Part shown: positions 24,311 to 62,954 of the stretch, one piece after another
Position numbering within the stretch: the first letter of the stretch is position 1
Layout: every line of letters begins with the position of its first letter
Made by a program: the position numbers and the translations under genes
Source of the DNA: a virus
DNA: 64,000 bases
IMG/VR virus record: IMGVR_UViG_3300037258_000046
Span: 1-64,000 of that record
Strand: one strand, 5' to 3'
The notes under the pieces: generated by a model
Seen by the model: the letters and a program-made list of their open reading frames with translations, nothing else
What the model was told of the DNA's origin: nothing
The model's database searches: none

Positions 24311-24543
24311 GGGAGCGGCCACCGCGCGATCACGCCGTCGGCCTCTTCGTCCGGTCGGTTGTAGTAGCGCGTCAGCATCGCCTTCACGTCCGCATCGGTC
24401 CAGCGCCGCTCGCCGCGGATCTCGTCCTCGGCGTCCAGGATCGCGTCGATCAGGGGATCGGCGAGCGTGCCGAGCCCCGGTGCGATGCCGTCGAGTCGAT
24501 CTCGCCACGCCGCACGCCGCGGCGCGTCGGTTGCTTGTGCCAT
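24307..24543 (-). CDS. Hypothetical helical protein, 78 aa
   Basis: AGGAGG before ATG. Contains LADPLIDAILDAEDEI and DADVKAMLTRYYNRPDEEADG. Acidic and soluble; unknown. A degenerate promoter motif lies upstream. Confidence 0.6.
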   Translation of the reverse strand: MAQATDAPRRAAWRDRLDGIAPGLGTLADPLIDAILDAEDEIRGERRWTDADVKAMLTRYYNRPDEEADGVIARWPLP

Positions 24544-29355: not shown

Positions 29356-29369
29356 CACTGCCTCCTGTC

Positions 29370-32177: not shown

Positions 32178-32968
32178 CAGTCAGTCACCATCGGCTTCTC
32201 GTAGGCGCTCAAGTCCTGCTGACTATGAGCTAAGCGCGTCTGTCGGACGTTACCGTTTGTCGCACGACGCGCGATCTCGCCCATCCGGTCGATCGTCGCA
32301 TCCGGGCTCGGCGACTTCCCGCCACCCTTGAGCGCGTAGCTGATGTCGCGGTACTCGTGCTGGACGTGATAGTCGCTCACCGCGAGCCCGTCGATCGCAG
32401 CGCAGCACTCCACGGTCGTCCGCACCTTGAGCGCGTCGCGGATGATCTTCCGGCGCCGAGCGTCGAGCACGAAGCGACTGCCGAACACCTCCAGGTATGT
32501 CGCCCACACTGTCGCGATCTGATCCTCGTCGCTTGACGGGGGGGAGGGGGGGGCTTCTTCTTCCTTAGCTCTAGGTAGTTCGGACGTCTCACCTGCGCGC
32601 GTGAGTCCGCCACTTTGGCGGGCTGTCACTCCGCCACTTTGGCGGTTGGCGGGCTCGACTTCGCCAAGTTGGCGGACTCGCTCGATCAAGACCCTGTAGC
32701 TCAGCCCGCGATCCCACGCGTCGCCCTGCTCCGACACCTCGATTAGCTCCAGCTCGCGCAGCTTCGCGAGCACTCGTTCGGTCGTGCGCTTGCTCCAGAA
32801 CGGGAAGATCTCGCGCCACGCCGCGACCGTGTTGCGTACCCATCCGTCGTCGGAGCGCTCGCCCATCCAGAAGACCTGCTGGAGCGCGATCGCCTCGTTC
32901 AGCCCGATCTCCACGGCGAGCGACGGGATCACCTGTAGCGGCGGCTCAGAGATCAGCAGCTTGCTCAC
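32177..32968 (-). CDS. Replisome organiser / initiator with winged helix (lambda O or DnaD-like)
   Basis: GTG start in a GTGA overlap with a 15-codon leader. Residues 10-75 form a winged helix (LAVEIGLNEAIALQQVFWM, WVRNTVAAWREIFPFWSKR, TTERVLAKLRELELI). Middle linker is Gln/Gly-rich (RQSGGVTARQSGGL) with a Pro/Ser stretch. The C-terminal domain begins ATVWATYLEVFGSRFVL. This is the usual organisation of phage initiators. With the loader next door, it probably opens phage replication. Confidence 0.75.
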   Translation of the reverse strand: MSKLLISEPPLQVIPSLAVEIGLNEAIALQQVFWMGERSDDGWVRNTVAAWREIFPFWSKRTTERVLAKLRELELIEVSEQGDAWDRGLSYRVLIERVRQLGEVEPANRQSGGVTARQSGGLTRAGETSELPRAKEEEAPPSPPSSDEDQIATVWATYLEVFGSRFVLDARRRKIIRDALKVRTTVECCAAIDGLAVSDYHVQHEYRDISYALKGGGKSPSPDATIDRMGEIARRATNGNVRQTRLAHSQQDLSAYEKPMVTD

Positions 32969-33012
32969 CGGCCCACCCCGGCCCGCGACGACACCGACAG
33001 CGATAGCTGCAT
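32965..33012 (-). CDS. 15-codon leader ORF before the initiator
   Basis: AGGAGGGTGAG directly precedes an ATG; product MQLSLSVSSRAGVGR. Its TGA overlaps the GTG of the initiator, so translation is likely coupled. The initiator itself has no other ribosome-binding site. Confidence 0.55.
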   Translation of the reverse strand: MQLSLSVSSRAGVGR

Positions 33013-33033
33013 CTCACCCTCCTGCGATCGAAG

Positions 33034-33066
33034 TTGAAAGGGAGCCGCCAGACCACGACGGCTCCC
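33034..33066 (-). terminator. Weak terminator or attenuator hairpin
   Basis: 8-bp arms 33040-33047 and 33059-33066 (GGGAGCCG with CGGCTCCC), followed on the minus strand by TTTCAACTT. Sits between the stop at 33073 and the initiator leader, so it could reduce read-through. Confidence 0.5.
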
Positions 33067-33072
33067 CACTGC

Positions 33073-33528
33073 TCAGCCCGTCGCGGACGCCGGGTCTGCC
33101 GCTGCGTCGGCGATCGCCTCGACGAACGTCGGGCGAAGCACCTGCCGGATCTTGTAGCCGACGATCCGGCCCTCCTTGCGCTTCACCACGACCTGCGCCG
33201 CCGTCGCGATCTCGTAGCTGACCATCACGCGGCCCGGACTGTCCGGGTCGATCATGCCCGCGCTGACCGGCACCTCCGCCGACATCAGCGACGCCGTGAC
33301 CTCGACCGGCAGGCCCGGCTTGATCAGGTTCTTGAGCGTCTTCTTTGGATCGCCCTCGACCGTCCCGAGCGGGAACAGCTCCTCCTGCTCGTCGTCGTCG
33401 GCCATCTCCGCGATCGACTTGCCGTCAGCCGCCGCGGCTTCTGCGGCTTCGCGGTCTTGGCGCTCCTGCCGCCGCCGCGCTATCTCGTTGTCCGCTGATG
33501 TTGCCTCGTTCTCGTCTTCCACCGTCAT
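33073..33528 (-). CDS. Hypothetical protein, 151 aa
   Basis: GGAGGAAG before ATG. The N-terminal 50 residues are charged and Ala-rich (likely disordered or coiled); the rest is compact beta-type (DPDSPGRVMVSYEIATAAQ, VVKRKEGRIVGYKIRQVL). In the recombination operon; unknown function. Confidence 0.6.
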   Translation of the reverse strand: MTVEDENEATSADNEIARRRQERQDREAAEAAAADGKSIAEMADDDEQEELFPLGTVEGDPKKTLKNLIKPGLPVEVTASLMSAEVPVSAGMIDPDSPGRVMVSYEIATAAQVVVKRKEGRIVGYKIRQVLRPTFVEAIADAAADPASATG

Positions 33529-33754
33529 CGGTGTCTTCCTCCTCGGGTTGCTTGAGATGGACGCGCACCACGGGCCCGAGCCCGGGCACCACGTTCGCCG
33601 CGACCGATCCGACAGCCTCGATCAGCAGCGCCTTCCTACCTTCCTGCAACAGCTCGCCTTCTGTGACGATCACCACGTCGATGATCGCCACGTCGAGCGG
33701 TTCACTGTACGCCTCGCCGGGCGCGAGAGTGATCCTCAGCTCACCCGTCGACAT
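33425..33754 (-). CDS. Hypothetical protein, 109 aa
   Basis: ATG overlaps the upstream gene by 14 nt; the reading frame then overlaps the next gene for about 100 nt. LRITLAPGEAYSEPLDVAII and VVIVTEGELLQEGRKALLI are beta-strand rich; the last 40 residues are low-complexity and may be a by-product of the overlap. Unknown. Confidence 0.5.
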   Translation of the reverse strand: MSTGELRITLAPGEAYSEPLDVAIIDVVIVTEGELLQEGRKALLIEAVGSVAANVVPGLGPVVRVHLKQPEEEDTDDGGRRERGNISGQRDSAAAAGAPRPRSRRSRGG

Positions 33755-34130
33755 CGACTTTGCGGCGATCTTCGAGCACCTGCAATGGCTCGTCGACCGT
33801 GACCGTCCCCTTCCACGCCGACCACGCCACCGCGCGGAACTGCCCGGGCACCGCGCCCTCACCCTTGCCGGTATATGACTCGATCGCGAGCGCCTGCGAC
33901 CGCGCGACGACAGGCACCTTCACGCCCGCCACGGCCGCCCACACGCCGTCCTGGAGCAGCGGGAACTCCGCCGAGCGGACGTTCTCGAACACCTCCGTGT
34001 AGTCGCTCACGGGCTGCACATGCAGCAGCTTCAACACGACATAGCGCGTCGGCTCCGCCTCGGGCTTAGGCTCCTCCTGCTGCGCCTTTCGCGTCCGCTT
34101 CGAGCCCTGCGACCCGTCTGTTTCGGCCAT
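33741..34130 (-). CDS. Hypothetical protein, 129 aa
   Basis: GGAAGG before ATG, inside the 3' end of the HNH gene (65-nt overlap). Basic, Lys-rich N-terminus, then a beta-rich core (RYVVLKLLHVQPVSDYTEVF, GVKVPVVARSQALAIE). The EVFENVRSAEFPLL segment recalls phage accessory proteins near recombinases; not assigned. Confidence 0.55.
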   Translation of the reverse strand: MAETDGSQGSKRTRKAQQEEPKPEAEPTRYVVLKLLHVQPVSDYTEVFENVRSAEFPLLQDGVWAAVAGVKVPVVARSQALAIESYTGKGEGAVPGQFRAVAWSAWKGTVTVDEPLQVLEDRRKVDVDG

Positions 34131-34659
34131 ACCTCCGCCTTCCTGATTGTGGATAGAGACGCTCCAGGAGCGCCACGAATGGCTCGCCCAGCTCGGCCGC
34201 GAACGCGCGCGCCGACGCCGGAACGTCCTGAGCCAAGAATGGATCGCGCGGCATCGGCGCCTCGTGGTCGACGTGGCACTCCCCGCAGACCGGCGACACG
34301 TTGCGCGGGTCGTTGATCAGCTTCCGCGTCAGCCTGCGCTCCTCGTTCTCGTCGAGCCGCTCCGCGGCCGCGTGACGGCGAAGCGCCTGCTGCGGCACCC
34401 AATGGTGCCAAGACCTCGCGCGTCGCTTCCTGGCGCGCCGCTCGCACCTCACGCAGTACAGCTCGCGCGCCGCGCCCGGCGCTTTGAACTCGACGCGCGC
34501 ACGCTTCGCGGGCGCCGCCTGCGCCGGAGCATCGAACGCCGTCGCCGACGGCCGCAGCCTCTTGCCGTACCACGGCTTCAAGCAGTGCGGGCAGAGCTGC
34601 TGCCGCGCGTCGGTAATCCAGATCCCGCCGCAATGCTTGCACCCGGCTGTGACCGTCAC
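34066..34659 (-). CDS. HNH endonuclease with zinc knuckles, 197 aa
   Basis: GTGA overlap start. CKHC and CPHC (zinc ribbon, residues 7-26), CVRC (69-72), then SWHHWVPQQALRR (catalytic His pair 85-86) and NDPRNVSPVCGECHVDHE (Asn120, Cys125, Cys128, His129), the beta-beta-alpha HNH fold. Placed between the PD-(D/E)XK nuclease and small proteins. Could be a packaging or recombination nuclease, or a homing enzyme. Confidence 0.8.
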   Translation of the reverse strand: MTVTAGCKHCGGIWITDARQQLCPHCLKPWYGKRLRPSATAFDAPAQAAPAKRARVEFKAPGAARELYCVRCERRARKRRARSWHHWVPQQALRRHAAAERLDENEERRLTRKLINDPRNVSPVCGECHVDHEAPMPRDPFLAQDVPASARAFAAELGEPFVALLERLYPQSGRRRYGRNRRVAGLEADAKGAAGGA

Positions 34660-35999
34660 TCGCCGTTACGCCGTCGAGCAGCGCGCGTCCGTGCGCCCTT
34701 CCGTGCGCTGACCGACCGCCGCGTCGCTGCGGCAAGCATCTTCTCCGTCGCCACGACCTCGTCGAGCATCGGCGGCGCGTCCTTCGGGTTGTACGCCTCG
34801 AACTTCGTGACCGACCTCGTGCGATACAGCTTCGTCGGATCGAGCCCCTGCGCGATCGCCTCGCGCATCTCCGCCTCGCTCGGCCTCGTCGTCTGCTGCC
34901 GGATCACCGGGCCCCACAGCCGCGTCCGCTTCGAGTCCTTGATCGCGAGCGGCCCGTGCATATTCGTCCACGGCCGCAGCGACTCGCTCAACCGGCGCTT
35001 CACCGCATCGACGACGGCGAACATCTTCCCAACGCGCTCGGCCTCCTCAAGCGACGCGATGCGCCCGTCTCGACGCAAGCTCGGCAGGATCGGACAGTGC
35101 TCCGGCTGCGCGCAATTCCAGCAGTGAGATCCCGGCGACGGCTTCCACACGCCCTCTTCGTATGAGCGGTCGAAGCGCTCGACGATCTGCGTGAACTCCG
35201 ACAGCAGCTCCGGCATCTTGTAGCGGTGGATCGACGCCTCGCGCGTCGGCTTCTGCGACGTCGACGTCATGTAGCGCACGTACACCTCGCGCAGCGTCAC
35301 GCGCTGAATGCCCGGGAACGTCAAGAACACGAGCAGCGCGTAGAACCGCTGCTGGAAGTAGCCCTCCTCGCTGATCGGCTCGTCGTCCGGGTCAGCGCCG
35401 TCCGGGAGATCCTCCGCCGCCACCCGCTCCGGCGGCAGACCCCACCCGCTCTTGAAATCCGGCACGATCGCGTGCCACCCGTTGCGCTCGATCAGCAGCA
35501 GATCCGGGCGGCCCGTGATCGTGCGCTGCACCATCAGGTCCCCGGGCGCCGGGTACGGCTTCGCCGGGTACTCGATCACCGCCTCCATGCGCTGCTCGAT
35601 CCCCGCGATGTCTCGCACGTCCCACTCACTCCCGAGCGCCCACGTGATCACACACACCCGCGCTTCGGCGATCCACCGCAGCGGCAGCGGCGCGACGCTG
35701 TCCTCGTCGCCGAGCATCGGCACGTCGGCCTGCCTGATCGTCCGCTCGAACTCCTGAATCGCGATCTCGACCGGGCAGCGCGTCTCGCCCCGCGCCAGCA
35801 TCAGCCGCATGCACCGCGCGATCGTCCGGTGCACGATCGTGCCCGCCGCCGCCGGGAAGCTAGAGAACTGATGATCCTCGAACTGCATCGACCACCGCGC
35901 GCTCAACGGGCACGCGTCGAACGCCGCGAGCTGCGACTGCCGCAGCCTCGGGAACGCCGCCATCGCCCGCGGGAACGGGACCACCTCCGTGCTCGTCAT
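34656..35999 (-). CDS. PD-(D/E)XK exonuclease with Fe-S cysteines (Cas4/AddB-like, RecE analogue)
   Basis: 447 residues. GRPDLLLIERNGWHAIVPDF then KSGW gives the nuclease core (Asp166, Asp181, Lys183). One Cys at residue 30 and CWNC...CP at 293, 296 and 302 form the four-Cys Fe-S cluster of Cas4/AddB nucleases. It follows the RecT gene in the same unit, the usual pairing of a resecting nuclease with an annealase for phage recombination. Confidence 0.85.
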   Translation of the reverse strand: MTSTEVVPFPRAMAAFPRLRQSQLAAFDACPLSARWSMQFEDHQFSSFPAAAGTIVHRTIARCMRLMLARGETRCPVEIAIQEFERTIRQADVPMLGDEDSVAPLPLRWIAEARVCVITWALGSEWDVRDIAGIEQRMEAVIEYPAKPYPAPGDLMVQRTITGRPDLLLIERNGWHAIVPDFKSGWGLPPERVAAEDLPDGADPDDEPISEEGYFQQRFYALLVFLTFPGIQRVTLREVYVRYMTSTSQKPTREASIHRYKMPELLSEFTQIVERFDRSYEEGVWKPSPGSHCWNCAQPEHCPILPSLRRDGRIASLEEAERVGKMFAVVDAVKRRLSESLRPWTNMHGPLAIKDSKRTRLWGPVIRQQTTRPSEAEMREAIAQGLDPTKLYRTRSVTKFEAYNPKDAPPMLDEVVATEKMLAAATRRSVSARKGARTRAARRRNGE

Positions 36000-36010
36000 C
36001 GCGCCGGAGT

Positions 36011-37210
36011 CTAGAAGTCGACTGAATCGTCGCCGCTGCTACGCGGACGCCACCCGAGCGGCACGCCGAGCGTCGTGAGCTGCTGATCGAGCCAATTCAG
36101 CTCGTCGACCAGCTCGGCGTCCTGCTTCTCGTTCGCGTTCTCGCGCAGCTCGTCGATCGCCGTCAGGCGCTCTAGGAACGGGTGCACCTGCGCACGCCAC
36201 GTCGCGTCGCTCTCCCACCGCGCCTGCGCCGCAGTCCAGTCCGCGCCCGTCTCCTCGCCCGCCTCGGGCTCCACGTCGCCGGAGACGGCCTCCTGCGCGC
36301 CCTCGACGCCGTTCTCGGCCATCGCAGCCTCAGCGCTCGGCGACACATCGTCAGCCACGACGACGGCATCCTCCGGCTCGTTCTCGGCAAGCCACTGCTC
36401 CAGCTCGCGCTTCACCTGAGCGAGCTGCACCGGAGTCGCGCCCTGCGTCCTCGCGCGCAGCACGCCCTCCGTGAACGCCGTCGGGTCCAAGTCGCGGATG
36501 CGCTCATACAGCGGAGCGATCTCCGGATCGAGCGGCTGAAAGTCACCGACGTCGGCGGCGCCAAGGCCACCGCTTGCGCCCGGCAGGTCGAGCCCAGCGC
36601 CCAGCTCGTCGAAGGGCACTGGCCCGGACACGCCATAGGTGATTCGCGTGATGTAGCTCGTCGCGGCTTTGACCATCATCGCGTGCAGAAATGACCATGC
36701 CGACCTCGCAGCGTCTTTGGCGTACTCCGCCCTCGGGGCGTAGAAGTAGCGATCCGGCTTGCCCTGACGGCGCAGGATCGCGTACGCGCCCACGACCTCG
36801 CCCCGCTTGCTCGGGTGGTCGTACTCGTGCACGATCGTGCGCTTGCCGTTCTCGGCGCGCCGAACGCGAAAGACGTCGTTCTCGCACACGACGTCGGCGT
36901 CGACGTCGATGAAGTGCTCGTCGCGGCGCGCGATCTTGAGGTAGCCATCACGGCCGACCATGACCGCGAGCCTCCCCGGCGCGCCGTTCTTGCCCGGCAT
37001 CTGCGCCAGCCAAATCTCGTTCAGCAGCGGATTCAGGTCGAGCGCCGCCGCCTCTTCGAGATAGCGCTGGAGCAGCGCCGTGTCGTTGATCGCGGGCGCG
37101 CCAACCGTGGCGGCAATCGTCGAGACGAGCGCCGGACTAAAAGTGCGCTTCGCCGCGGCGGAGAGACGGACTACGTTCGTGCCCGGAGCGGGCGGAGATT
37201 GCGTTGGCAT
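36011..37210 (-). CDS. recT: RecT-family single-strand annealing protein
   Basis: 399 residues. LDLNPLLNEIWLAQMPG, RLAVMVGRDGYLKIARRDE, VHEYDHPSKRGEVVGAYAIL and DRYFYAPRAEYAKD are the conserved blocks of RecT. The C-terminal 130 residues are acidic and variable (EPEDAVVVADDVSPSAEAAM). First gene after a promoter and terminator; starts the recombination operon. Confidence 0.9.
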   Translation of the reverse strand: MPTQSPPAPGTNVVRLSAAAKRTFSPALVSTIAATVGAPAINDTALLQRYLEEAAALDLNPLLNEIWLAQMPGKNGAPGRLAVMVGRDGYLKIARRDEHFIDVDADVVCENDVFRVRRAENGKRTIVHEYDHPSKRGEVVGAYAILRRQGKPDRYFYAPRAEYAKDAARSAWSFLHAMMVKAATSYITRITYGVSGPVPFDELGAGLDLPGASGGLGAADVGDFQPLDPEIAPLYERIRDLDPTAFTEGVLRARTQGATPVQLAQVKRELEQWLAENEPEDAVVVADDVSPSAEAAMAENGVEGAQEAVSGDVEPEAGEETGADWTAAQARWESDATWRAQVHPFLERLTAIDELRENANEKQDAELVDELNWLDQQLTTLGVPLGWRPRSSGDDSVDF

Positions 37211-45429: not shown

Positions 45430-46373
45430 TGACCGGCCGCCGACGGCGTCGAGGAGTGCTTCACCTTCGGCGGCAGCAGCAGCGTCGTCTTGTGATGCGC
45501 CTGCATCCACGCCTGCAACTGCCCCGCGTCGCTCGCCGACACGTTCGTGATGCCGTTCAGCGCCGCGACGTTGCGCCAGTCGCTCGGCGAGCCCATCTGC
45601 TTGCGCGCGACGTCGTAGAGCGAATCGGTACTCAGTACCCGGTACGCGACCGGCATGACCCCGGCACCATGCCCCGGGCTCGGGCCGCCCGACCCTCCCG
45701 AGCTGCCAGCGCCCGGCGTCGACCCCGACCGCGCGCGGCGCGTGCCGTCGGCCGTCAGCTCCCGGTACTGCTGAAAGGTGACCGTCACGTACTCCGTGCC
45801 GATCTCGCCCGCCTTCTGCGTCGGCGACACGCCCGTGAGCGTCGCGAGCGAGTTCACGATCGGCTTGCTCCATATCTTCGGCTCGTCAGCGAGCAGCCGG
45901 AAGATCCCGTTAGCCTCGGCGATCGCCTCCAGCTCCGCGATGAAAGCCTGCGGCTCGAAGAACCCGTTTTTGGCGTTCGCGGGCCGCTGATCGGTGCCCT
46001 TCCAGACCACGAACGGCTCGTTGTCCCACACGAAGAGCGTGTCGAACTGCCACTGCCGCAGCGACGCTCCCTGCGGCCGCGACTGCTCCCTCGCGCTCAG
46101 CGTCTCGAACGGATTCCACGGCGCCAGCAGCGGGCGCGTGAACTCGTTCAGCGGCGGGCACTGAAACCGAAATGGCGTCTTGAGGATGCCGTCGGCCGTG
46201 ACGCCCTTCTCCGCCCGCAGCGTCACGCGGATCCCGCCGTCCTTGTCAAAGCCCACGTTCTGACGGTTGCTCCCGTCGCTCGCTGACTTCTTGCCCGACT
46301 GCGTCGACGTCGGATACTTCGACGTCGGCTGCGTCTGCCCCTGCCCCGGCGCGTAGCTATTCGCCGGGCTCAC
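45426..46373 (-). CDS. LysM baseplate protein, XkdP-like, 315 aa
   Basis: GTGA overlap with the tape measure stop. A basic, Gln/Ser-rich N-terminus, then a baseplate domain with FQCPPLNEFTRPLLAPWNPF and LRQWQFDTLFVWDNEPFVVW. The C-terminal LysM reads VMPVAYRVLSTDSLYDVARK, then WRNVAALNGI and LLLP. LysM may bind peptidoglycan at entry or help locate the hub. Confidence 0.8.
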   Translation of the reverse strand: MSPANSYAPGQGQTQPTSKYPTSTQSGKKSASDGSNRQNVGFDKDGGIRVTLRAEKGVTADGILKTPFRFQCPPLNEFTRPLLAPWNPFETLSAREQSRPQGASLRQWQFDTLFVWDNEPFVVWKGTDQRPANAKNGFFEPQAFIAELEAIAEANGIFRLLADEPKIWSKPIVNSLATLTGVSPTQKAGEIGTEYVTVTFQQYRELTADGTRRARSGSTPGAGSSGGSGGPSPGHGAGVMPVAYRVLSTDSLYDVARKQMGSPSDWRNVAALNGITNVSASDAGQLQAWMQAHHKTTLLLPPKVKHSSTPSAAGQ

Positions 46374-49300
46374 CGCAGCAGACTCAATTCGCTCTCGAAG
46401 CTCACGCGCTCGTGCTCCTCGGCGATCTCGCTCGCGAGCTGCCGCAGCTCCGCCTCGACCGCCGCACGCACCTCGCGGTGCAAGTCGCCCGGGCGCTTCC
46501 ACTCGATGTTCTGAATCGTCACCTGCACGATCACATCACCACGGCCGGTCGAGCTGCTCCCACTCGCCGGGCTGATCGACACCGTCTCCGGCACATCACC
46601 GACGCCGATCAGCGTCGGCCGGTCATAGGTGAACTCGCCGCCCGCGGCATGCCAGCCACCCCACTTCGGGCGCCCGCCCTTCGCGTACCAGCCGTCGGCC
46701 TCCTCGTGGCCCCACGCCGCGCCCGGCGAGCCGTAGCGCTGCCTGATGTACCCAAGCCCCCAAGCGATCTGCCCGGCCGCGTCTCCGAGCGCCACGGGCC
46801 CGTGCCCGAGGCTCTGAGCGATCCCGGCCGCGCCGCTAGTGGGATTGACCGCCGTGTCGCTCCAGCCGCTCTCACGCGTCCACAGCGCGTTCAGGTACGG
46901 CCACTGAGACGCAGGCCACCCGGCCGAGATCATCATGCGCCGCCCGATCTGCTGATTCACGCTCGGCGCCGTCCCCATCCCGCCGGGCACCGCGCCACCG
47001 CCGCCGCCTAGTGAGTTCATCCCGCTGAGGAGCGCCATCAGCTCCTTGATCAGCGGCGAGTTCACGAGCGCCCCCGCGATGCCGCCCGCCGCGCTCGACG
47101 TCTTCACGCCCACGCCAGCGAAGATGTTGCCGCCCGTCGCGTACCCCGGCGCCATGTGCGCGCTCGTCTCCCCCGCCACGAGCTGCCCGAGCGTCTTGCC
47201 GTACGCCGCCATCGTCGCGGCGCTCGCGCGCGCCTCCGTGTGCCGGTTCGCGATCAGCAGCTCGCCACCGCCGACGAACCCCGCGACGTTGCCGGACGGG
47301 TCGAGGATCGACCACGTGTCGCCCGAGATCGCGCCCGGCACGCGCATGCCCGTCGCCGCCGACGGCGGCGCCAGCCCGACGTAGTTCGTCGACCCTGCCT
47401 TCGCCACGAGCCCCGGGCTCCCCGGCTTCGCGGGCAGGCCCGTGTTCGTGCTCTTGCTCGACGAGAGCTGCGACACGTACTTCGACGCCTGCGCCGGGCT
47501 GTAGCCCATCGCCTCAAGTGCCCCCAGCGCCTCGCTCTTCATTGTCGCGAAATCCCCGGCCAGCTTCGCCTGAGCCCGGTCGATCGGGTTCGAGATGGCC
47601 GTGCTGATCTGGCTCCACTGCTGAGTCGACCCGTCGAGCACCTGGCCGTTGACCACCTTGATATTCGAGCCGAGGGTATGCATGTCCTGAGTGATCCCGG
47701 CCTGCAAATCGTCCATCGGCTTTTTGACGGCCGGGTTCTTCTGCTGCATCTGCTGAGCCCACGAATCCATCGCCTGCGCGAGCGACAGCCGCCCCGTCGG
47801 CGTCAGGTCATCGAGCTGCTGCTTGATCCCGGCGGCGAGCGCCGTCGTCTGCCGCTGCACCATCGAAGCTCGCGTGTCCGGCGTCGCCGCGTCATAGCCG
47901 GAGAGCCCCTTCATAAACGCATCGGTCCAGCTCTTCGCCGCCGAGCGGCCCTCACCCTCGACCGCGGCGATCGCGACGCCATGGACCCACTTACCCATCT
48001 GATGCTGCGCCGGAGTGTCGGAGTCCGAGCTAGTGACGCGCGCCAGCTCCGCCTCGTGGATCGCCTGCGTCCACAGCCCCTTCGCCAGATCCGAGGTGGC
48101 CTTCTTTGCCTGCGCCTTGAGCGCCGCGTCCTGCTGCGCCCCGCCGCCAGCGGACCCCTCGTAAAGACCCATCGTCGCCGCCACCGGGATCGTGACCGGC
48201 AGCAGCGCCGCGCCCAGCCCCGCACCGACCGCGCGGCCCACGGACCCGCCGATGACTCGCTGCCCGAGATTCGCGCCGCCGCGGATCGGCACCGCCGCGC
48301 CAGCCGCGATGTCGGTCCCCTCGCCGCTCGCCGTCTGCGTCGACCCGAGCCCCTTCAAGATCGCCTGCGTCGCCATCCCGACCACCGCACCGATGATCGG
48401 ATTGCCGCCGCTCAACACCGTCCCCGCGACCGCGCCGAGCGCCGACCCAGCGCCGAGGCCGCCGACCGTCTTCCCGAGCTGCCCCGGGAGAAGCTGCCCG
48501 AGGATCTGCGTCGCCGCGTACGCCATGCCAGCCGACGTCCCCGCCCGCAGCAGCGTCGCCGCACCACCCGCCAAGCCCCCAAGCGCCGACCGGCCAAGCG
48601 CCGAGATCCCGCCCGTCGTCTCCGCGCCGACGATGCCCTCCACGCCAGCCCCGCCCGCAGCCTCCGCCGCGGGCAGCGCCGCGCGCTCCGCCGCCACCGA
48701 CTCCGGCACCAACAGGCCCGAGTTGACGCGCGCGAACCCCGGCGTCAGCAGCGCAGCCTCCTCAGCACCCGTCGCCGACGCCGCAGTCGCCGCAGGCATC
48801 GCCGACGTCCGCGCGACCGTCGCATCAGTCGCCGCCGTCTCCTCAGCCGTCGCCGCCACCCCGGCCGGAGTGAACGGCACGCCGCCCGGGCCCGCGACCA
48901 CCATCACCGCCAGTGGATTCTCGATCGACCCCGGCCCGACGAACGACTTGTAACCCCACCCGAGCGCCGACGTCCCCGCCGACGTCCCCGCCGCCGCCGT
49001 GGCCGCCCCGCCGCCGCCAGCGTAGGCATCGAGCTTGTTCGCCATCTGGAAGGGGAAGCTCGCGACGCTCTTGCCGAACTCCGCGAAGGTCTTGACCGCC
49101 CCACCGATCCGGCGCGCCACGTTCACCCCGAGCGCCACGACGCTCGCGACCAGCACCCCACCGATCACGGCCGCCAGCGCCTCCGCCGCGGTCTTGTTCT
49201 CCGTGAACCAGTGAAACACCTCCTTCCCGTCGTCGATGACCTTCTCGACCTCCGGGATCAAAACGTCGCCGAGCCGGACGCCCAGCGACTCCGCGGCCCC

Positions 49301-50587
49301 CTCGAACTGATGGAACTGCACGCCCAGGGTGCCGTACGCCTTCGTGACGTCGGTATTGAATCGGCTCGCGGTCTGCCCGAGCTGCTCGTACTTGCCCTGG
49401 AGCTTGTCCTGAGACTGGAAGAGGTTCTCGACGATCGTCGCGCCGCGAATGCCGCCGAAGGACCGCGAGATCACCGCCGCCGCGCCGCTCGCCGACAACC
49501 CCGACGCCTCCATGTGCTTCTGCAAATCGCGCAGCGCCACGAGCACGCCATCCGGCTTGCGCAGATCGTCAGCGACCCGCGTCGTCGACACGCCCGCCTT
49601 CTCCAGCAGCGCCGACATCTGCGCGCTCGCCGAGAGCGCCTGCGTCGGCGTCAGCCCGATCTGCTCCAAGATCCCGGCCGCCATCTTCGGCGGCGCCGCC
49701 ATCTCCACGAGCGCCGTGCGCAGCAGCGTCGCCGCGCGCTGCGCAGGCTGCCCCTTGTCGGTCAGCACGTCGAGCGCCGCGCCGACGCTCTGCATCGAGA
49801 TGCCGAAGTTCCGCGCCGTCGGCACGATCCCGGTCGAGAGCGCATTCATCAAATCCTGCATGTGCATGTCGCCAGCGCCGACGATCGCGTTGAGCATCGC
49901 CATGCTCTTGTGCGCTTGCGGGATCGTGGTCTGCCCGAGCGCGTTCATCAACGACGACAGCACGTAGGTGGTCTGCGTCAGATTCGAGCCGCCGACGGTC
50001 GCGCCCTCAGCTGCGATCCGCAAGATCCCCAGCTCCGTTCGCGCCCGCCCAACGGACGGGATCAGGTTGTTCATCGACGAGACGATGTGATACATGCCGC
50101 CCGCCAGTTCGTCCGGCGTCTGGCCGACCGCCCCCGCCATGTCGAGAATGCCCTTGCGCAGCTTGTCGGTCGCGGCCACCCCGACGTTCGCCTGAGTCTC
50201 GAACTGCGTCGTCATGCTCTGAAACTTCGTCGCGAGATCCACCCCGGCCGCAGCGACGCCAACCATCGTCGCGATCGTCGCCTTCCCGGTCGTGACCATC
50301 GCGCTGCCGCTATCAGCCCACGCCTTAGTCACCCGCCCCGCCGCGGCCTCGTGAGTCGCCGCAGCCCGAGTCGCCGTCGCCGCGCTCGCGCCAGCCGCGG
50401 CATCCATCTCCCCGAACGCCACAGCGCCCTTCCGCGTCCCGGCCGACACCTGAGCCATCGACTCGTCGGCCGTGACGCCCAGCACCTTGAGCCGCTCTTC
50501 CGTCTTGTCGGCGGCCGCGTTGATCTCGCCCAGCAGCTCGGGAGCGTTCGAGACAAGCTCGAAGGTGCCCGTGATCACCGCAGTCAT
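46370..50587 (-). CDS. Tail tape measure protein with SLT transglycosylase domain, 1405 aa
   Basis: AGGGGG before ATG. Long alternating helices, an Ala/Gly-rich middle with hydrophobic segments, and coiled coils in the N-terminal third (LLGEINAAADKTEERLKVLG). Near residues 1205-1300: WPYLNALWTRESGWSD, then NPTSGAAGIAQSLG, the soluble lytic transglycosylase fold with its catalytic Glu (RES). So it sets tail length and carries a peptidoglycan-cutting module for DNA entry. Confidence 0.95.
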   Translation of the reverse strand: MTAVITGTFELVSNAPELLGEINAAADKTEERLKVLGVTADESMAQVSAGTRKGAVAFGEMDAAAGASAATATRAAATHEAAAGRVTKAWADSGSAMVTTGKATIATMVGVAAAGVDLATKFQSMTTQFETQANVGVAATDKLRKGILDMAGAVGQTPDELAGGMYHIVSSMNNLIPSVGRARTELGILRIAAEGATVGGSNLTQTTYVLSSLMNALGQTTIPQAHKSMAMLNAIVGAGDMHMQDLMNALSTGIVPTARNFGISMQSVGAALDVLTDKGQPAQRAATLLRTALVEMAAPPKMAAGILEQIGLTPTQALSASAQMSALLEKAGVSTTRVADDLRKPDGVLVALRDLQKHMEASGLSASGAAAVISRSFGGIRGATIVENLFQSQDKLQGKYEQLGQTASRFNTDVTKAYGTLGVQFHQFEGAAESLGVRLGDVLIPEVEKVIDDGKEVFHWFTENKTAAEALAAVIGGVLVASVVALGVNVARRIGGAVKTFAEFGKSVASFPFQMANKLDAYAGGGGAATAAAGTSAGTSALGWGYKSFVGPGSIENPLAVMVVAGPGGVPFTPAGVAATAEETAATDATVARTSAMPAATAASATGAEEAALLTPGFARVNSGLLVPESVAAERAALPAAEAAGGAGVEGIVGAETTGGISALGRSALGGLAGGAATLLRAGTSAGMAYAATQILGQLLPGQLGKTVGGLGAGSALGAVAGTVLSGGNPIIGAVVGMATQAILKGLGSTQTASGEGTDIAAGAAVPIRGGANLGQRVIGGSVGRAVGAGLGAALLPVTIPVAATMGLYEGSAGGGAQQDAALKAQAKKATSDLAKGLWTQAIHEAELARVTSSDSDTPAQHQMGKWVHGVAIAAVEGEGRSAAKSWTDAFMKGLSGYDAATPDTRASMVQRQTTALAAGIKQQLDDLTPTGRLSLAQAMDSWAQQMQQKNPAVKKPMDDLQAGITQDMHTLGSNIKVVNGQVLDGSTQQWSQISTAISNPIDRAQAKLAGDFATMKSEALGALEAMGYSPAQASKYVSQLSSSKSTNTGLPAKPGSPGLVAKAGSTNYVGLAPPSAATGMRVPGAISGDTWSILDPSGNVAGFVGGGELLIANRHTEARASAATMAAYGKTLGQLVAGETSAHMAPGYATGGNIFAGVGVKTSSAAGGIAGALVNSPLIKELMALLSGMNSLGGGGGAVPGGMGTAPSVNQQIGRRMMISAGWPASQWPYLNALWTRESGWSDTAVNPTSGAAGIAQSLGHGPVALGDAAGQIAWGLGYIRQRYGSPGAAWGHEEADGWYAKGGRPKWGGWHAAGGEFTYDRPTLIGVGDVPETVSISPASGSSSTGRGDVIVQVTIQNIEWKRPGDLHREVRAAVEAELRQLASEIAEEHERVSFESELSLLR

Positions 50588-51773: not shown

Positions 51774-52328
51774 CTACTGCGTCGGCGAGTCGAGGTAGGT
51801 GATCAGCGGCAGACCCGTCGTCGGGTCGACCTGCTGTCCCTGAATCTCGTACAGGTAGATCGGCGTCTCGTCTTCCCAGCGGAAGTCGTACGTCCGCGAC
51901 TCCAGATCGTTCGCCGTCTGGAAGCCCAGCGGCAAGTTGAAGAGACGGCACCCGTCGAGCTGCCACGCCTCGATGCCGAGCGCACCCGGATCGTCGAGGT
52001 AGACCTGCATCGAGAACGTCCGATTGAACGGCGTCCCGGCGTCGCGCATCTTCCGCAGCGTCGCAAGGTCCGTCCCAATGAAGCCGTAGATGTCGTTCTC
52101 CCAGCGGCCGTCGATCTTCTGGATCGTGAGCTGCCCGCCGGTACGCGTGATCATGCCGTCCTTCACGCCGTTACGGTTCGTCCCGGCCAGCGGCACGTCG
52201 ACCTGAGCGATCGTCACGGTCGCGGTCACGCCCGTGACCTCCATGAGCTGAACGCCGTCGCGCCACGCCTCGCCGTACTTGCCGGAGATCCGGTAGGAGC
52301 CCTGATTGATCACGCTCGAAGCTGCCAT
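51774..52328 (-). CDS. Tail tube protein (XkdM-like), 184 aa
   Basis: TGATG overlap with the sheath gene. VINQGSYRISGKYGEAWRDG, VDVPLAGTNRNGVKDGM, TGGQLTIQKIDGRWENDIYG and EAWQLDGCRLFNLPLGF are the blocks of the XkdM/gp19-type tube. Order sheath, tube, chaperone, tape measure is standard. Confidence 0.85.
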   Translation of the reverse strand: MAASSVINQGSYRISGKYGEAWRDGVQLMEVTGVTATVTIAQVDVPLAGTNRNGVKDGMITRTGGQLTIQKIDGRWENDIYGFIGTDLATLRKMRDAGTPFNRTFSMQVYLDDPGALGIEAWQLDGCRLFNLPLGFQTANDLESRTYDFRWEDETPIYLYEIQGQQVDPTTGLPLITYLDSPTQ

Positions 52329-53836
52329 CAGACCGCCACCGCAATCGAGTTGAAGACCTGGCGCAGCGACGGCGAGAACCGGAAGCCGTACTTGATCGCC
52401 ACGAAGTCCTGATCATCGCTCGGCGGCCCAAACGTGCTCGTGTCGATCACGACCGTCGGGTTCGCCTGAATGATGCCCGCGCTCGCACGCTGCCCCGCGA
52501 GCTTGCGGCCCTCACCGATCAGGAAGTCGCGCGTGCGATCGTTCACGTTCAGATCGCCGATGTTGCCGTCGGACTCCTCCAGGAGCGCCTGTAGGTCGCT
52601 CTCGAAGCCCGCCATGATCATCAGGTACTTCACGACGCCGTAGACGTTCGTGCCGTTGAAGAGCGACGGATTGCGCGGATCGAGAGCGCCCGTCGGCTGC
52701 GTGAACGTCGTGCAGCCCTGAGCGATCCTCACGGGCGCGTCCTGACGGCCATCGGCCGAGAACACCGTGAGCCCGAAGCTCGGCGCCTGCTGCTGATCGG
52801 ACGGCTGCGGAGCGTCGCTCTTGAGCTTGACCCCCGCGAAGCGCGCCATGATCAGGTCCGCCTTCTCGCCGCGAGCAGCGATCACGCCCGCGACACGCGG
52901 CGCGAACTGCGCCGTCGAAAGATCGACCGGGATCCCCGGAGTGATGTTGCCGACATCGGTGATCGTGCCGACGCCGATGCGAACCACGAACGGATCGTTG
53001 AGCCCCGACGCCGCCGTCTCGGCCGTGTTGACCGACTCGCCGAGAGCGCCGCCCAAGACCAGCTCGCAGCGCAGCCCGGACGTGTTCTGCGTGTCGACCC
53101 ACGCCTGCACCGACGCCGCGATCGACGGGTCGCTCAGGTTCGCGAACGCGAGCACCCGAAACTCCTGATTGGCCAGCGCCGCCAGAGCGCTCGTGTAGTC
53201 GCCCGCGATGTAGGTCGTCCCGTCGTTGCCGCCCGAGAGCGCAGCGGCCGAGACGTTCGCGAGCGCCACGCCGTCGATCGTCAGCGACGCCGACACATAG
53301 GCCGACACCGCGTTGATCTGAGCGACGAGCGAGCTGATCGACGTCGACGTGTAGGTGTACTTCTCGACGACAGCGCCGCCGAGCAGCACGAGAAGCTGAG
53401 AGGTGCCGCCGACCGCACCGGCCTGCACCGTGAGCGTCAGCGAGTTGCCGAGCGTGCCCGGATAGCGCGCGGTCAGCGCGATCGCGGCCGCCGGGGTCGC
53501 ATTCTGGAGCGAGTGCGCCGCCGAAGCGATCGCGCTCGACAGACCCATGCGCACGGCGAGCACGGCGCTCGCTCCGCCCTTGCCCGAGACGCCCTCGCCG
53601 ACGAAAGCCTGTAGCACCGCGCGACGCAGCTCCGTGTCCCCGGAGCCGAACTTCGCGACGAAGTCGTCGTAGCTGTCGCACAGCGTCGCCTCGTCGTAGG
53701 GGCCCCAATCATGCAGGCCCGCGACTGCGACGATGCCGCCCGGGCTCGGCGCGATGTTCGGCGCCGACTGAGCGACGAAGTCGGTGTACTCGCCCGGCAG
53801 CACCGGACGCGCGCCCTGAGTGAACGTGCCCGCCAT
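52328..53836 (-). CDS. Contractile tail sheath protein, 502 aa
   Basis: TGATG overlap start (MAGTFTQGARPVLPGEYTD). N-terminal VPG/E-type opening, ATLCDSYDDFVAKFGSG, ASAVLAVRMGLSSAIASA, then a C-terminal core with QGCTTFTQPTG, YLMIMAGFESDLQ, GNIGDLNVNDRTRDFLIGEG and YGFRFSPSLRQVFNSIAV. These blocks are those of phage sheath proteins. It fixes the morphology as myovirus-like. Confidence 0.9.
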   Translation of the reverse strand: MAGTFTQGARPVLPGEYTDFVAQSAPNIAPSPGGIVAVAGLHDWGPYDEATLCDSYDDFVAKFGSGDTELRRAVLQAFVGEGVSGKGGASAVLAVRMGLSSAIASAAHSLQNATPAAAIALTARYPGTLGNSLTLTVQAGAVGGTSQLLVLLGGAVVEKYTYTSTSISSLVAQINAVSAYVSASLTIDGVALANVSAAALSGGNDGTTYIAGDYTSALAALANQEFRVLAFANLSDPSIAASVQAWVDTQNTSGLRCELVLGGALGESVNTAETAASGLNDPFVVRIGVGTITDVGNITPGIPVDLSTAQFAPRVAGVIAARGEKADLIMARFAGVKLKSDAPQPSDQQQAPSFGLTVFSADGRQDAPVRIAQGCTTFTQPTGALDPRNPSLFNGTNVYGVVKYLMIMAGFESDLQALLEESDGNIGDLNVNDRTRDFLIGEGRKLAGQRASAGIIQANPTVVIDTSTFGPPSDDQDFVAIKYGFRFSPSLRQVFNSIAVAV

Positions 53837-54189
53837 CAGACAGACGCCTTCTCGGCAGAGCCGGTCGGGTTGTCGACCTTCACCGGAGTATCGAGCCACT
53901 TCTTGACGCGGCCCGCGATGTAGGAGCGACTCACGCTGCGCAGCTTGGCGTCGGGATTCGCGCGGAGCTTGAGCCAATCGTCGTAGAACGCGCCGACGAG
54001 CACGTGATGCCCGAAGCGCGTGATCTCCGGGCCCTCCGACCCGAGAACGCGACGAAGCTCGAACTGCTCCTCGTCCGCACTCGCGTCAGCCTGCGGCTCG
54101 TCGCGATCCTCGTGCTCCGTCTCCGTCTCGTCGCGCTCTTCATCGTCGCGCTCGACGTCATCGGATGGCTTGACTCGCGGGGCGGGCAT
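53836..54189 (-). CDS. Small protein between neck and sheath genes, 117 aa
   Basis: ATG with GGAG close upstream and a separate TTGACT-N19-TATCCT promoter. An N-terminal run of Asp/Glu/Arg (DDVERDDEERDETETEHEDR), then a helical domain ITRFGHHVLVGAFYDDWLKL and SYIAGRVKKWLD. Possibly a tail completion or gating factor; not assigned. Confidence 0.5.
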   Translation of the reverse strand: MPAPRVKPSDDVERDDEERDETETEHEDRDEPQADASADEEQFELRRVLGSEGPEITRFGHHVLVGAFYDDWLKLRANPDAKLRSVSRSYIAGRVKKWLDTPVKVDNPTGSAEKASV

Positions 54190-57237: not shown

Positions 57238-58380
57238 TTAGGCCACCACCGATCGGTAGGTTCCGCGCGGGTCGACCGGCGCAGAGCCGAAGTCGAACTC
57301 CGTGATGTACTCCAGCGCCCGCAGATCCCACGAGTACGGGTCGCTGTCCGGGCCGACGATCGAGCGGATCTCGGGATTGCGCATCCCGAGGAAAGGCGTC
57401 TCGTCGCCGTCGAGGAAGCTGATCGTGAACGCCGGGATCTGCGACGGATCCGCGAACAGATACCAGTCGTTCGGGTCCGGCAGGAAGTTGTCGACCACCA
57501 CGCCCCCGGGCAGCAGCCCGGAGTCGGCTAGCGGGTTCACGTTGCCCGCGGCCATCTGCCCCGCCGCCATGTCGGTGGTATCGGTGCGGATGCCCGTGAT
57601 CTGCGAGTTCAGGATGCGACGCGCGATCGCGGCCATGCGGTCGTTCTGCACGACCAGCACGCTCGCCTTCGACACGATCGGCCGGTTCAGGTCATCGCGC
57701 TGCGTCTGGAGCCACACGATCCCGTCCAGCAGCGAGTCCTCAGACAGCGCCGCCGTAGCCGAGTTGCCGACCACGCCGCCGTTCGTCGGCCGCGAGCTGG
57801 AGTACACCGGGTTGCCGTCGGGCGCCGTCGGGTTCGCGACGATCAGAGCGATCACGGCCTGCTGGATGAACACCCCAGCGGAGTAGCCCATCTCGTCAGG
57901 CGTCCGCGACAGGATCTCGTTCGTGTCGTCGTTGCGAAGCGCCTGCCGCGTGATCTTGTACTCCGCGCCATAGGTGTCGACCATGATCGACGCCTCCGGG
58001 CGGAACGTCCAGCGCATCCCGGGACGCGTCCCAAGCTCGCCGACGTAGCCGATGCCGGTCATACCGGCGAAGCCCTTGATGCGCTTCTCGCGGAAGTCCT
58101 GCGCCGAGTCCTTCGCGGCGTAGCGCTTCCACTGGAAGGCCGCGCGCTCATACCCGGCGTAGAACGCGATGCGCACCGTGCCGTAAAGGAAGCTCGCGAA
58201 GTCGGCGCGCGTGTCCGGCGACGCCTCCTCCAGCAGCATCAGCGCAAGACGCTGATCCTCGTCGAGGTTCTCGGACGCCAGCGTCGCACCGGCCTCCTGT
58301 AGCTCGATGCACGTGTCGCGCCAGTCCTCGTACATATCGAAGGTGCGGAGCGGCTTGCCCCATCGGCCGTAGTCGCGCAT
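57238..58380 (-). CDS. Major capsid protein (Mu gpT-like), 380 aa
   Basis: TGATG overlap start (MRDYGRWGKPLR). FASFLYGTVRIAFYAGYE, RWTFRPEASIMVDTYGAEYK and ITRQALRNDDTNEILSRTP, then VANPTAPDGNPVYSSSRPTN, and VVVDNFLPDPNDWYLFADPS are the pattern of gpT-type HK97-fold capsid proteins. It follows the protease/scaffold and decoration genes. Confidence 0.85.
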   Translation of the reverse strand: MRDYGRWGKPLRTFDMYEDWRDTCIELQEAGATLASENLDEDQRLALMLLEEASPDTRADFASFLYGTVRIAFYAGYERAAFQWKRYAAKDSAQDFREKRIKGFAGMTGIGYVGELGTRPGMRWTFRPEASIMVDTYGAEYKITRQALRNDDTNEILSRTPDEMGYSAGVFIQQAVIALIVANPTAPDGNPVYSSSRPTNGGVVGNSATAALSEDSLLDGIVWLQTQRDDLNRPIVSKASVLVVQNDRMAAIARRILNSQITGIRTDTTDMAAGQMAAGNVNPLADSGLLPGGVVVDNFLPDPNDWYLFADPSQIPAFTISFLDGDETPFLGMRNPEIRSIVGPDSDPYSWDLRALEYITEFDFGSAPVDPRGTYRSVVA

Positions 58381-58766
58381 CAGAGCGTGTCCTTCGCGTC
58401 GAGGTTGACCCACATCAGGCCCGTCGGGCAGCCGTAGGTTCCGGGAAGCGCCACGATGCGGCCGACCTTGACCTGCCCGGTCGACGGTGCGCCAAGACCA
58501 ACGACGCCCGTGGCCGTCGTGATGTAGACCTCTTCGCCGAACGTTGCGCCGCCGATCGCGGCCACCTCGACGACGCCGGTCGTGATCAGGAAGAACGGCT
58601 CGCTGACGGCGATGACGTTGATGTTCGCGCGAGCGGTCGCGATCGTGTAGCCCTGCTGCTTGACAGCAGTGCCGACGTACCCGCCCTCATAGGTCAGATC
58701 GCCGTGGCTGCATGACCGGGTGGCAGCGGGGACGTGTACCCCGCGGCTGGAGACGTTCAGCGGCAT
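58380..58766 (-). CDS. Capsid decoration protein, DUF2190-like, 128 aa
   Basis: Starts PLNVSSRGVHVPAATRSCSH. The pattern GGYVGTAVKQQGYTIATARA, ISEPFFLITTGVVEVA and EEVYITTATGVVGLG, GQVKVGRIVALPG is the DUF2190-type beta sandwich placed next to capsid genes in many phages. Confidence 0.65.
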   Translation of the reverse strand: MPLNVSSRGVHVPAATRSCSHGDLTYEGGYVGTAVKQQGYTIATARANINVIAVSEPFFLITTGVVEVAAIGGATFGEEVYITTATGVVGLGAPSTGQVKVGRIVALPGTYGCPTGLMWVNLDAKDTL

Positions 58767-60696: not shown

Positions 60697-61737
60697 CTAT
60701 GCGTCCCCGTACGTCGACAGCACATACTCGGAGACTTCCCCCCAATTCTCAGTCGCGAGCGTCAACACCGTCCGCTGCTCCTCCTCCTCCTGCACCTTCT
60801 CCTGCCACTGATGCCCGTCACGCAGCAGCCCGATCTCAGTACGGATCAACCGGACTAGCGTCTGCGGGTCGAGCGCGTCCAGCTCCCATGAGCTGCTCCC
60901 GTAGCGCTTCACGTAGCCGTGGCCGCGCGAGTCCGACAGCTTCGCCGGGTTCGGCGGAGGGTTGTGCTCCTGGATCTGCTCCCAGGTCAACGCGATGCGC
61001 TTCACCTCCAGCTTCTCCCACAGCTCCGCCTTCATCGTGTCGACGTCGTCGCCGAGATCGCACAGATCCAAGTCGACCGACAGGAACCGCGCGAGCCGAT
61101 CTTCGATGTCGCGGGTCATGTCGATGCCCGACGGATCGTGGTCCCCGAGATGCAAGATCACGCACCGCTTGCCCTGCTCGATCTTCCCGCGCAACCGCTG
61201 CGCCGAAGACCAAATCTCCGATAGCGACGTGTACCCGCGGCACGACAGATAGGTGACGTCCTCGATCGGGCAGCTCCGCTCAAGCATCCCCACGAGCGCG
61301 TCCTTCTCGATCCACACCTCGACGTGAGTGTCCTGCGGCGCCCACTTGTCGATCGCGAACGCCTGCGCGGCCGCCTCGATCAGCTCCGTCGGCGAGTCCC
61401 AATGCGGCGGGCTCTCCGCCTTGCGCGTGCGGTCGACGATGTAGTCCCAATCGAGCTGCCCGGCCAGCCGCGCGTCGGCGACGATGTCGCCCAGCCACTT
61501 GTAGTTCGGCTCCGCGTTCTTCGTGCCGTTCTCGTCGCGAACCCACTTCCCCGCGGCCGTCTGCGACCACGTGCGCGCGTCCGGAAAGTAGTCGTGCGCG
61601 ACGAACTGGTAGTAGAGCTGCCGCAGCGTCAAGTCGTAGCGCTGCGCCGCGAACTCCGCGCATATCTGGCGGGCCCGAGCGATCACCCGCCGCGCCTCCG
61701 GCGGGAACGACTTCGACACGTACTGAATCTCAGGCAT
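60697..61737 (-). CDS. Topoisomerase VI A/Spo11-like protein, orphan (Mini-A type), 346 aa
   Basis: GGAGG before ATG at 61737, chosen over a longer frame because the gene upstream overlaps it. N-terminal winged helix with LTLRQLYYQFVAHDYFPD (candidate nucleophile Tyr42/43). The TOPRIM region has VEVWIEKDALVGM (Glu144), SCRGYTSLSEI and LHLGDHDPSGIDM (Asp199, Asp201), the same order as TopVI A/Spo11 (Glu, GxGY, DxDxxG). No B subunit (GHKL ATPase) is found in this window, so it may act alone, as is known for some MGE-encoded A-type proteins. Confidence 0.7.
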   Translation of the reverse strand: MPEIQYVSKSFPPEARRVIARARQICAEFAAQRYDLTLRQLYYQFVAHDYFPDARTWSQTAAGKWVRDENGTKNAEPNYKWLGDIVADARLAGQLDWDYIVDRTRKAESPPHWDSPTELIEAAAQAFAIDKWAPQDTHVEVWIEKDALVGMLERSCPIEDVTYLSCRGYTSLSEIWSSAQRLRGKIEQGKRCVILHLGDHDPSGIDMTRDIEDRLARFLSVDLDLCDLGDDVDTMKAELWEKLEVKRIALTWEQIQEHNPPPNPAKLSDSRGHGYVKRYGSSSWELDALDPQTLVRLIRTEIGLLRDGHQWQEKVQEEEEQRTVLTLATENWGEVSEYVLSTYGDA

Positions 61738-62095
61738 CACTACCTCCTCGCAGCTCGGCCGCCTTCGCCAAGTAGACCGCGGCCTCCTCCGGCGTGCGGC
61801 CCGCGACATTCTCCAGCGCCGCGATGCGACGCTCCCGCGGGAACCGCGCCAGCAGCGCGCTCACGTGATCGCGCAGATGCTCAAGCTGCCAGACGATCTC
61901 CTCCTCGTAGGCTTCGCGCGCCAGCGACGAGAACTCCGAGCCCTCCTCGAACAGAAGGTGCGCGAGCCGCATGATCGCTAGCGGAGCGTCTTCGAGCGCC
62001 TTCTGCGCGAGCCTCCAGCGTTCCGGCACCGGCTTCGTCGACCACGAGCCCGCACGCACCCGGCCGACGCCTTGGACGTAGGTCATCTTCGGCAT
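61730..62095 (-). CDS. Hypothetical helical protein, 121 aa
   Basis: ATG in a TGATG overlap. All helical: ERWRLAQKALEDAPLAIM, LAREAYEEEIVWQLEHLR, IAALENVAGRTPEEAAVYL. Soluble and acidic. Its stop overlaps the start of the Spo11-like gene by 8 nt, so the two may be co-produced. Confidence 0.55.
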   Translation of the reverse strand: MPKMTYVQGVGRVRAGSWSTKPVPERWRLAQKALEDAPLAIMRLAHLLFEEGSEFSSLAREAYEEEIVWQLEHLRDHVSALLARFPRERRIAALENVAGRTPEEAAVYLAKAAELRGGSDA

Positions 62096-62253
62096 CAGCG
62101 CCACAACCTTCGCCACACGCCGACCTTGCCGAGCCCGCGCCCCACCGCGATGTTCTTCGCGCGCCGCGGCACGTTGCCCGTCCTGATCGCCCTGCCGGTC
62201 GCGCTCGCGCGCGCCGCCCGGTACAGCGTCCCCGTCACCGTGAACTTGCCCAT
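62095..62253 (-). CDS. Basic microprotein, 52 aa
   Basis: TGATG overlaps on both sides. A very basic sequence, GTLYRAARASATGRAIR and RAKNIAVGRGLGKVGVW, rich in Arg/Gly. Likely DNA- or RNA-associated; too short to place. Confidence 0.55.
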   Translation of the reverse strand: MGKFTVTGTLYRAARASATGRAIRTGNVPRRAKNIAVGRGLGKVGVWRRLWR

Positions 62254-62954
62254 CACTGCACCTTCCTTTCAGCCGCGCGGCGGGCTGCCTGCCAGATCCG
62301 CGCGTCCATGTCGTAGGTTCGTCCGTCGTTGCGCACGCCGTCCAGCGCGCCCGGCCAAAGCTCTCTCGCGGCCCGCAGCAGCGTCACCCTGAACTGCGTG
62401 CCGTGGTGCTCGTGGTAGTTGCAGATCACATGGACCAGCTCGTGCAGGATCAGCTCTTGCGCGCGCTCCAGCGGCACCGTCGGCCCGAACCGCAGCACCA
62501 TCCGGTCGTACCACCACGCCCGCCCCGAGCACCCGCTGCCGATCGCCTTCGAGCGGATGATCTTCACCTCGGGCCGCCATGACGGCGGCTCCGGGTTGAC
62601 CAGCTCGTCGCGCGTCGCGGCCCACCGCTCGCGGATCTCCGGCAGCCGCATGCACCGCTCGATGAACGCGAAGACGTCCAGCTCGACGCGCTCGCCATCG
62701 GCCGCGACAGCCCACACGATCCATCGCTCGCGCTCGCGCTGACGTGCCGCCTTCTCCGCCGTCGCGCGCTTCTCGCTGCTGCGCAGCGCCGACGCGGCGC
62801 GCTTGCGCTCAAGCGACGGCGCCGTGCGCTTCACTAGACGGCCCTCCGCCTGCGAGCACGGCAAGCAGTAGCGCACCACCGCATCGGCGCGCGGACGCGT
62901 CGAGCCGAGCACACCCGGATGCTTGCCGTTCGGGCACTCCCACCGCACGCTCAC
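62253..62954 (-). CDS. SprT-like zinc metalloprotein, 233 aa
   Basis: ATGA overlap start. An N-terminal zinc site (CPNGKH...CLPC, residues 7-33), a charged helix, then HELVHVICNYHEHHG (His171, Glu172, His175, His184), the SprT metalloprotease-like core. Such proteins act on DNA-bound or cell-wall proteins; a role in processing is inferred. Confidence 0.7.
   Translation of the reverse strand: MSVRWECPNGKHPGVLGSTRPRADAVVRYCLPCSQAEGRLVKRTAPSLERKRAASALRSSEKRATAEKAARQRERERWIVWAVAADGERVELDVFAFIERCMRLPEIRERWAATRDELVNPEPPSWRPEVKIIRSKAIGSGCSGRAWWYDRMVLRFGPTVPLERAQELILHELVHVICNYHEHHGTQFRVTLLRAARELWPGALDGVRNDGRTYDMDARIWQAARRAAERKVQ

Follow-up and report, generated by a model that had tools for sequence, protein, structure and literature searches.

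The window analysed here, a stretch of 64,000 nucleotides, belongs to a 74,208-base virus contig and carries on its minus strand a gene (60697..61737) for a predicted Mini-A, a Topo VI-A/Spo11-like protein of 346 amino acids. The reading frame opens with an ATG at 61737 and its stop codon ends at 60697, and a strong ribosome binding site precedes it (GAGGAGGTAGTGATG, with GAGGAGG just ahead of the start). The frame overlaps by 8 bases the stop of the gene directly upstream (61730..62116, minus strand), which is what would be predicted for a member of an operon; this upstream gene has a weak DUF2786-like match (E=0.0025, below the cut-off). A chance open reading frame is excluded by the match of the protein to the PHROG 6247 family, "DNA topoisomerase" (E=1.9e-91), and by hundreds of full-length homologues.

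The order of genes around the locus is portal (record positions 64758-66851, upstream of Mini-A and beyond the window), several small genes, a SprT-like gene, the DUF2786-like gene, Mini-A, small genes, a gene for a 436-residue protein, a cement-like gene and the major capsid protein (57238..58413), the last downstream of Mini-A and on the minus strand. The tail sheath (52328-53977), the tape measure (46370-50587) and baseplate and tail-fibre genes are also on the minus strand, and the terminase lies at 7277-9064. Together with the capsid and portal genes, these identify the virus as a contractile-tailed phage. The SprT-like product, a putative zinc metallopeptidase (HELVH...H), is coded two genes upstream of Mini-A (62253..62954, minus strand) and has a weak Pfam match (E=0.0012). 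Such a protease was considered as a general remover of Mini-A-DNA crosslinks and rejected, as about 119 other Mini-A loci yielded neither a homologue of this gene nor a second SprT-type HExxH, and its own assignment to the family is weak.

Other features of the genome were recorded along the way. A long repetitive protein with VYSYSASA-type repeats spans both ends of the record (2-3688 of the window, minus strand, and near 74182 at the record end), and 126 identical bases stand at or near both ends inside this repeat-coding gene, so the genome may be circular and complete or the assembly may have broken at the repeat. A cysteine-dioxygenase-like gene (23699-24508, minus strand; PHROG E=2.9e-26) is an unusual metabolic function to find in a phage. 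A replication and recombination block (30793-37210, minus strand) codes for RusA-like, DnaC-like and DnaD-like proteins, a PD-(D/E)XK nuclease and RecT; RusA is probable (PHROG E=1.3e-5, Pfam below cut-off). A clear Ku homologue is encoded at 28564-29358 on the minus strand; its Pfam Ku match (E=8.8e-15) passes the cut-off, and its NCBIfam Ku_bact match (E=5.4e-17) stays under the one set for that family. A tblastn search of 50,697 phage records gave no match to it, and phage Ku is already known from Corndog (PMC4351075).

Direct comparison with gp49 of Pseudomonas phage NP1, a published example of Mini-A (PMC7614492), identifies the 346-residue protein by sequence as a Mini-A homologue, with 37% identity over 329 aligned positions (BLASTP, E=9e-68); the NP1 record, NC_031058, was also found by tblastn. 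Mini-A was defined by Takahashi et al. 2020, whose work two reviews summarise (PMC7614492 and PMC8185306), and the features by which membership was judged here were taken from reviews of the family. It is therefore an already named and common family, of which this protein is one further member. Homologues were found in 75 phage records by tblastn, and relatives in at least 588 viral stretches, in 204 stretches of bacterial or archaeal DNA that cover many phyla, three archaeal assemblies among them, and in 38 plasmids, a distant Streptomyces group included. Encoding by a virus or mobile element is evident both in these relatives and in the terminase, portal, capsid and sheath genes of the record itself. 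Among the plasmids, distant Mini-A-like proteins of about 27% identity are coded in a Streptomyces plasmid (L230, 5007-5837) and a Rubrobacter plasmid (L231, 4959-5888), where a gene annotated as DNA polymerase III beta comes next in the former and lies about 3 kb away in the latter. One further relative (L036, 9371-10347) is broken across two overlapping frames, which reflects a frameshift or a sequencing error.

NP1 gp49 and the window protein share near full-length homology, the YY pair, the Glu, RGY, GDHDPSG, the C-terminal PPPNPAK-DSR...SWELDAL, a phage origin and the lack of a B subunit. In contrast to gp49, the window protein is longer by about 19 residues (55-73) behind the Tyr helix, an addition common to 14 of 125 relatives, and has a second insertion around residues 222-242. 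The YY pair is Y42-Y43 (LTLRQLYYQ; codons at 61609..61614, minus strand) in a winged-helix/5Y-CAP domain, and it is followed by E144 (VEVWIEKDAL), CRGY at 166-169 and GDHDPSG at 198-204; the TOPRIM core, from E144 via CRGY to D199 and D201, is coded at 61126..61308 on the minus strand. Twelve residues never vary in 126 diverse relatives (R39, Y43, E140, E144, K145, G168, D199, H200, D201, P202, S203 and G204), whereas position 42 is Tyr in 122 and Phe in 4 of them; Y43 rather than Y42 is therefore the expected nucleophile. The winged-helix segment with its invariant Y43 and the predicted TOPRIM metal site (E144, D199 and D201) keep the order seen in Topo VI-A sequences. The original prediction had read a Tyr-Tyr segment, a TOPRIM Glu, CRGY and GDHDPSG in this order and had proposed kinship to TopVI A/Spo11, with Mini-A as a precedent; all four elements were located as described, and the identity to NP1 gp49 together with the PHROG 6247 match bears out the kinship.

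Similarity between Mini-A and Topo VI-A is very remote at the sequence level. The 346-residue protein alone returned nothing meaningful in a Pfam search and nothing significant in a single-sequence search of PDB; profile searches of PDB sequences (A1 and A6) gave chance matches alone, and a guessed Topo VI-A DNA pattern had no match in viral contigs. Alignment of profiles was more informative. Against a Topo VI-A set gathered from archaeal genomes and confirmed by matches to PDB entries 2q2e and 1d3y, hhalign placed the Tyr, Glu and DxD regions and the subsequent segment in colinear order (E=0.016), and the Tyr, Glu and DxD regions were matched once more against a broader Topo VI-A set (E=0.0046), pairing LTLRQLYYQ with STLRELYYI and GDHDPSG with TDGDPWS. 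These scores are weak: column-shuffled controls equalled them in 1 of 150 runs for the former set and 1 of 100 for the broader one, and narrower or badly trimmed alignments matched the TOPRIM stretch alone or nothing. The register of the tyrosines, on which the original prediction depended, held when checked: Y42-Y43 align with the archaeal YY, which is 107/108 in the archaeal sequence L206. As numbering in L206 runs two ahead of that in Methanosarcina mazei (M. mazei), the second Tyr is equivalent to Y106 of M. mazei, the catalytic Tyr of its Topo VI-A (PMC11302465).

Searches in the reverse direction agree with this placement. When a Topo VI-A HMM was run over 13,445 open reading frames, Mini-A proteins, which make up 1.5% of them, took 8 of the ten highest ranks and 17 of the highest 25, with the proviso that Mini-As are mutually related and not independent and that no single match was significant by itself. 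TP6A_N, of the type IIB topoisomerases, was the Pfam family most often matched by relatives (10 of 126; the best match, E=0.0013, did not reach the Pfam cut-off), the next most frequent family reaching 2 of 126, and weak TP6A_N matches in open frames of three archaeal assemblies turned out to be their Mini-A genes. A structural comparison pointed the same way. An AF2 model built from a 126-sequence alignment (pLDDT 94.9, pTM 0.88) contains the TOPRIM beta-alpha-beta order, and its best Foldseek match among 350,542 PDB chains was the M. mazei Topo VI-A/DNA complex (E=2.1e-4, prob 1.00, 336 columns), at a TM-score of just 0.30; another entry of M. mazei Topo VI-A ranked second, and small TOPRIM proteins stood lower in the list. 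This model replaced a first, shallower one (26 sequences, pLDDT 88.4), which was dropped as it gave no fold match. The PHROG topoisomerase label, the prevalence of TP6A_N among relatives and the leading structural match do not direct the protein to another TOPRIM family, and the hhalign register, the Foldseek match and the invariant residues describe a truncated Topo VI-A with a Tyr/winged-helix part and a TOPRIM. Taken together, the protein is probably a Mini-A that acts through Tyr-based cleavage, a free-standing protein related to Spo11 and to the A subunit with which Topo VI cleaves DNA.

The Topo VI-A proteins of M. mazei and M. jannaschii, which present the catalytic Tyr, the TOPRIM Glu and the DxD in the same succession as Mini-A and include its best fold match in PDB, differ in having about 60 residues more ahead of the Tyr domain (Y106 against Y43), a Topo VI-B partner and very low sequence similarity. 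The original prediction had noted no GHKL B subunit in 64 kb, and this holds for the rest of the genome: a HATPase_c (GHKL) search gave no match in the full 74,208-base record, nor in the Mini-A records of 20 relatives, all of which may be incomplete, while the identical search was positive in 14 of 14 control genomes. The missing B subunit is thus normal for the Mini-A family and not peculiar to the window phage. Neither the A + B heterotetramer of Topo VI, for which the record has no GHKL match, nor the ATPase part that Topo VIII carries itself, usually within a single polypeptide, for which the 346 residues have no HATPase_c match, describes what was found here. Spo11 also has the Topo VI-A core, with which it makes breaks, and it has in common with Mini-A the predicted Tyr-based chemistry; it is through that core that kinship to Spo11 is drawn here. 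Unlike Mini-A, Spo11 acts together with accessory factors and a B-like partner (PMC11302465).

The location of the gene is what sets the window phage apart from most relatives. Outside its clade, the commonest PHROG neighbours of Mini-A are DNA polymerase and helicase, followed by integrase, HNH and methylase, and NP1, RcSimone-Hastad and Delta are examples with Mini-A beside replication genes; in NP1 it sits in a replication/recombination block, whereas in the window phage it sits in the head block. The window Mini-A falls in a tree clade of 13 (support 0.895). In four members of this clade (L003, L006, L007 and L067), Mini-A is flanked on its own strand by a terminase 3-8 kb upstream and a portal at 0.9-1.4 kb in the downstream direction, so that the gene lies between terminase and portal there and between portal and capsid in the window phage. 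A portal near Mini-A was also found in L008, L086 and L115, and a terminase in L033, which is outside the tree; in all, 7 of 76 neighbour proteins in the clade match portal. Terminase/portal synteny was searched for and not found in L001 and L050, the two closest relatives, and the position of Mini-A thus varies even inside the clade. The window Mini-A travels with late head and packaging genes, and no earlier description of a Mini-A clade in a head/packaging block was found as far as the literature could be searched.

The function of Mini-A is stated as unknown in PMC8084294, none of the archaeal members has been characterised according to PMC8185306, and no published account of activity or function was found as far as these sources were searched. 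By analogy with Topo VI-A and Spo11, Mini-A would dimerise and, in the presence of Mg2+, each Tyr would attack one strand, so that the duplex would be broken across both strands, leaving short 5' overhangs and a Tyr held covalently on each 5' end. With no ATPase, ATP-powered strand passage would not be expected, and the enzyme might act on phage DNA as a controlled cleaver and resealer or as a Spo11-like break maker; these last steps are the weaker part of the analogy. The best reading of the analysis is that Mini-A may be an ATP-independent, Spo11-like dimeric DNA-cleaving enzyme of replicating or packaging phage DNA. In the window phage, since Mini-A is embedded in the head-gene block, the target could be late, concatemeric or branched DNA around the time of packaging. 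Taken by itself and judged from gene position, a packaging-time role is tentative, possible rather than probable.

The main rival to a role on late or concatemeric DNA is that the same enzyme starts recombination or recombination-dependent replication as a phage analogue of Spo11, its breaks being processed by a PD-(D/E)XK nuclease, RecT and a RusA-like resolvase, and Ku as well. The window phage carries RecT, the nuclease, a probable RusA and a clear Ku, the NP1 gene adjoins a Sak4-like annealing protein with a Cas4-type exonuclease near, a Cas4 exonuclease is also near Mini-A in RcSimone-Hastad, and the polymerases and helicases that surround most other Mini-A genes fit such a role. However, in the window phage about 24 kb separate Mini-A, within the head block, from the recombination genes. 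Ku was present in just 2 of 50 Mini-A records and was accordingly dropped as a standing partner of Mini-A, though the other record belongs to L050, which with one further relative stands nearest in the tree. From its location in the head/packaging block, packaging nicks are no less plausible than recombination breaks, both being putative. For this clade we favour the late-DNA role and regard break-initiated recombination as possible but somewhat less likely.

It seems improbable that Mini-A is instead a regulated nuclease akin to MksG/JetD of the Wadjet systems, in which the TOPRIM would cut DNA, for instance that of the host or a competitor, with no covalent Tyr intermediate. MksG does have a Topo VI-A-like TOPRIM fold and cleaves DNA free of ATP (PMC10123090), which may be possible for Mini-A too, and DUF2399, whose function is unknown, is matched by a small number of relatives (5 of 35, with E=1.6e-4 at best; 2 of 126). 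But the N-terminal, 5Y-CAP-equivalent domain of MksG lacks a catalytic Tyr (PMC10123090), whereas Y43 is invariant in 126 of 126 relatives and aligned with the Topo VI-A Tyr, and none of the annotated genes of the window was recognised as a Mks/Wadjet partner. Least likely of all is a Topo VI-type topoisomerase that performs strand passage with a host-encoded or too-divergent ATPase subunit: Topo VI-A needs Topo VI-B, the eukaryotic B-like partners of Spo11 resemble Topo VI-B only to a limited degree (PMC11302465), and the family is labelled a DNA topoisomerase in databases, but 21 Mini-A records gave no HATPase_c match, clustering of the genes around Mini-A revealed no conserved B-like neighbour, and the relatives come mostly from bacterial hosts spread over many phyla, where Topo VI occurs only sporadically (PMC11302465).

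An ATP-independent, Spo11-like cleavage enzyme is thus the reading that we carry forward for the window phage. In its most specific form, one Mini-A clade would have been recruited to a packaging/head operon (terminase - Mini-A - portal), where it would cooperate with terminase, for example to cut, unlink or debranch concatemers during packaging; this is speculative and quite improbable as it stands, and if true it would make a Spo11-type enzyme serve as a packaging factor. More generally, Mini-A represents a small, B-less version of the Topo VI-A/Spo11 cleavage module, and whether it cuts DNA alone bears on the derivation of Spo11 from a topoisomerase. The clade found in the packaging block offers a concrete and testable hint at the role that Mini-A may have in phages.
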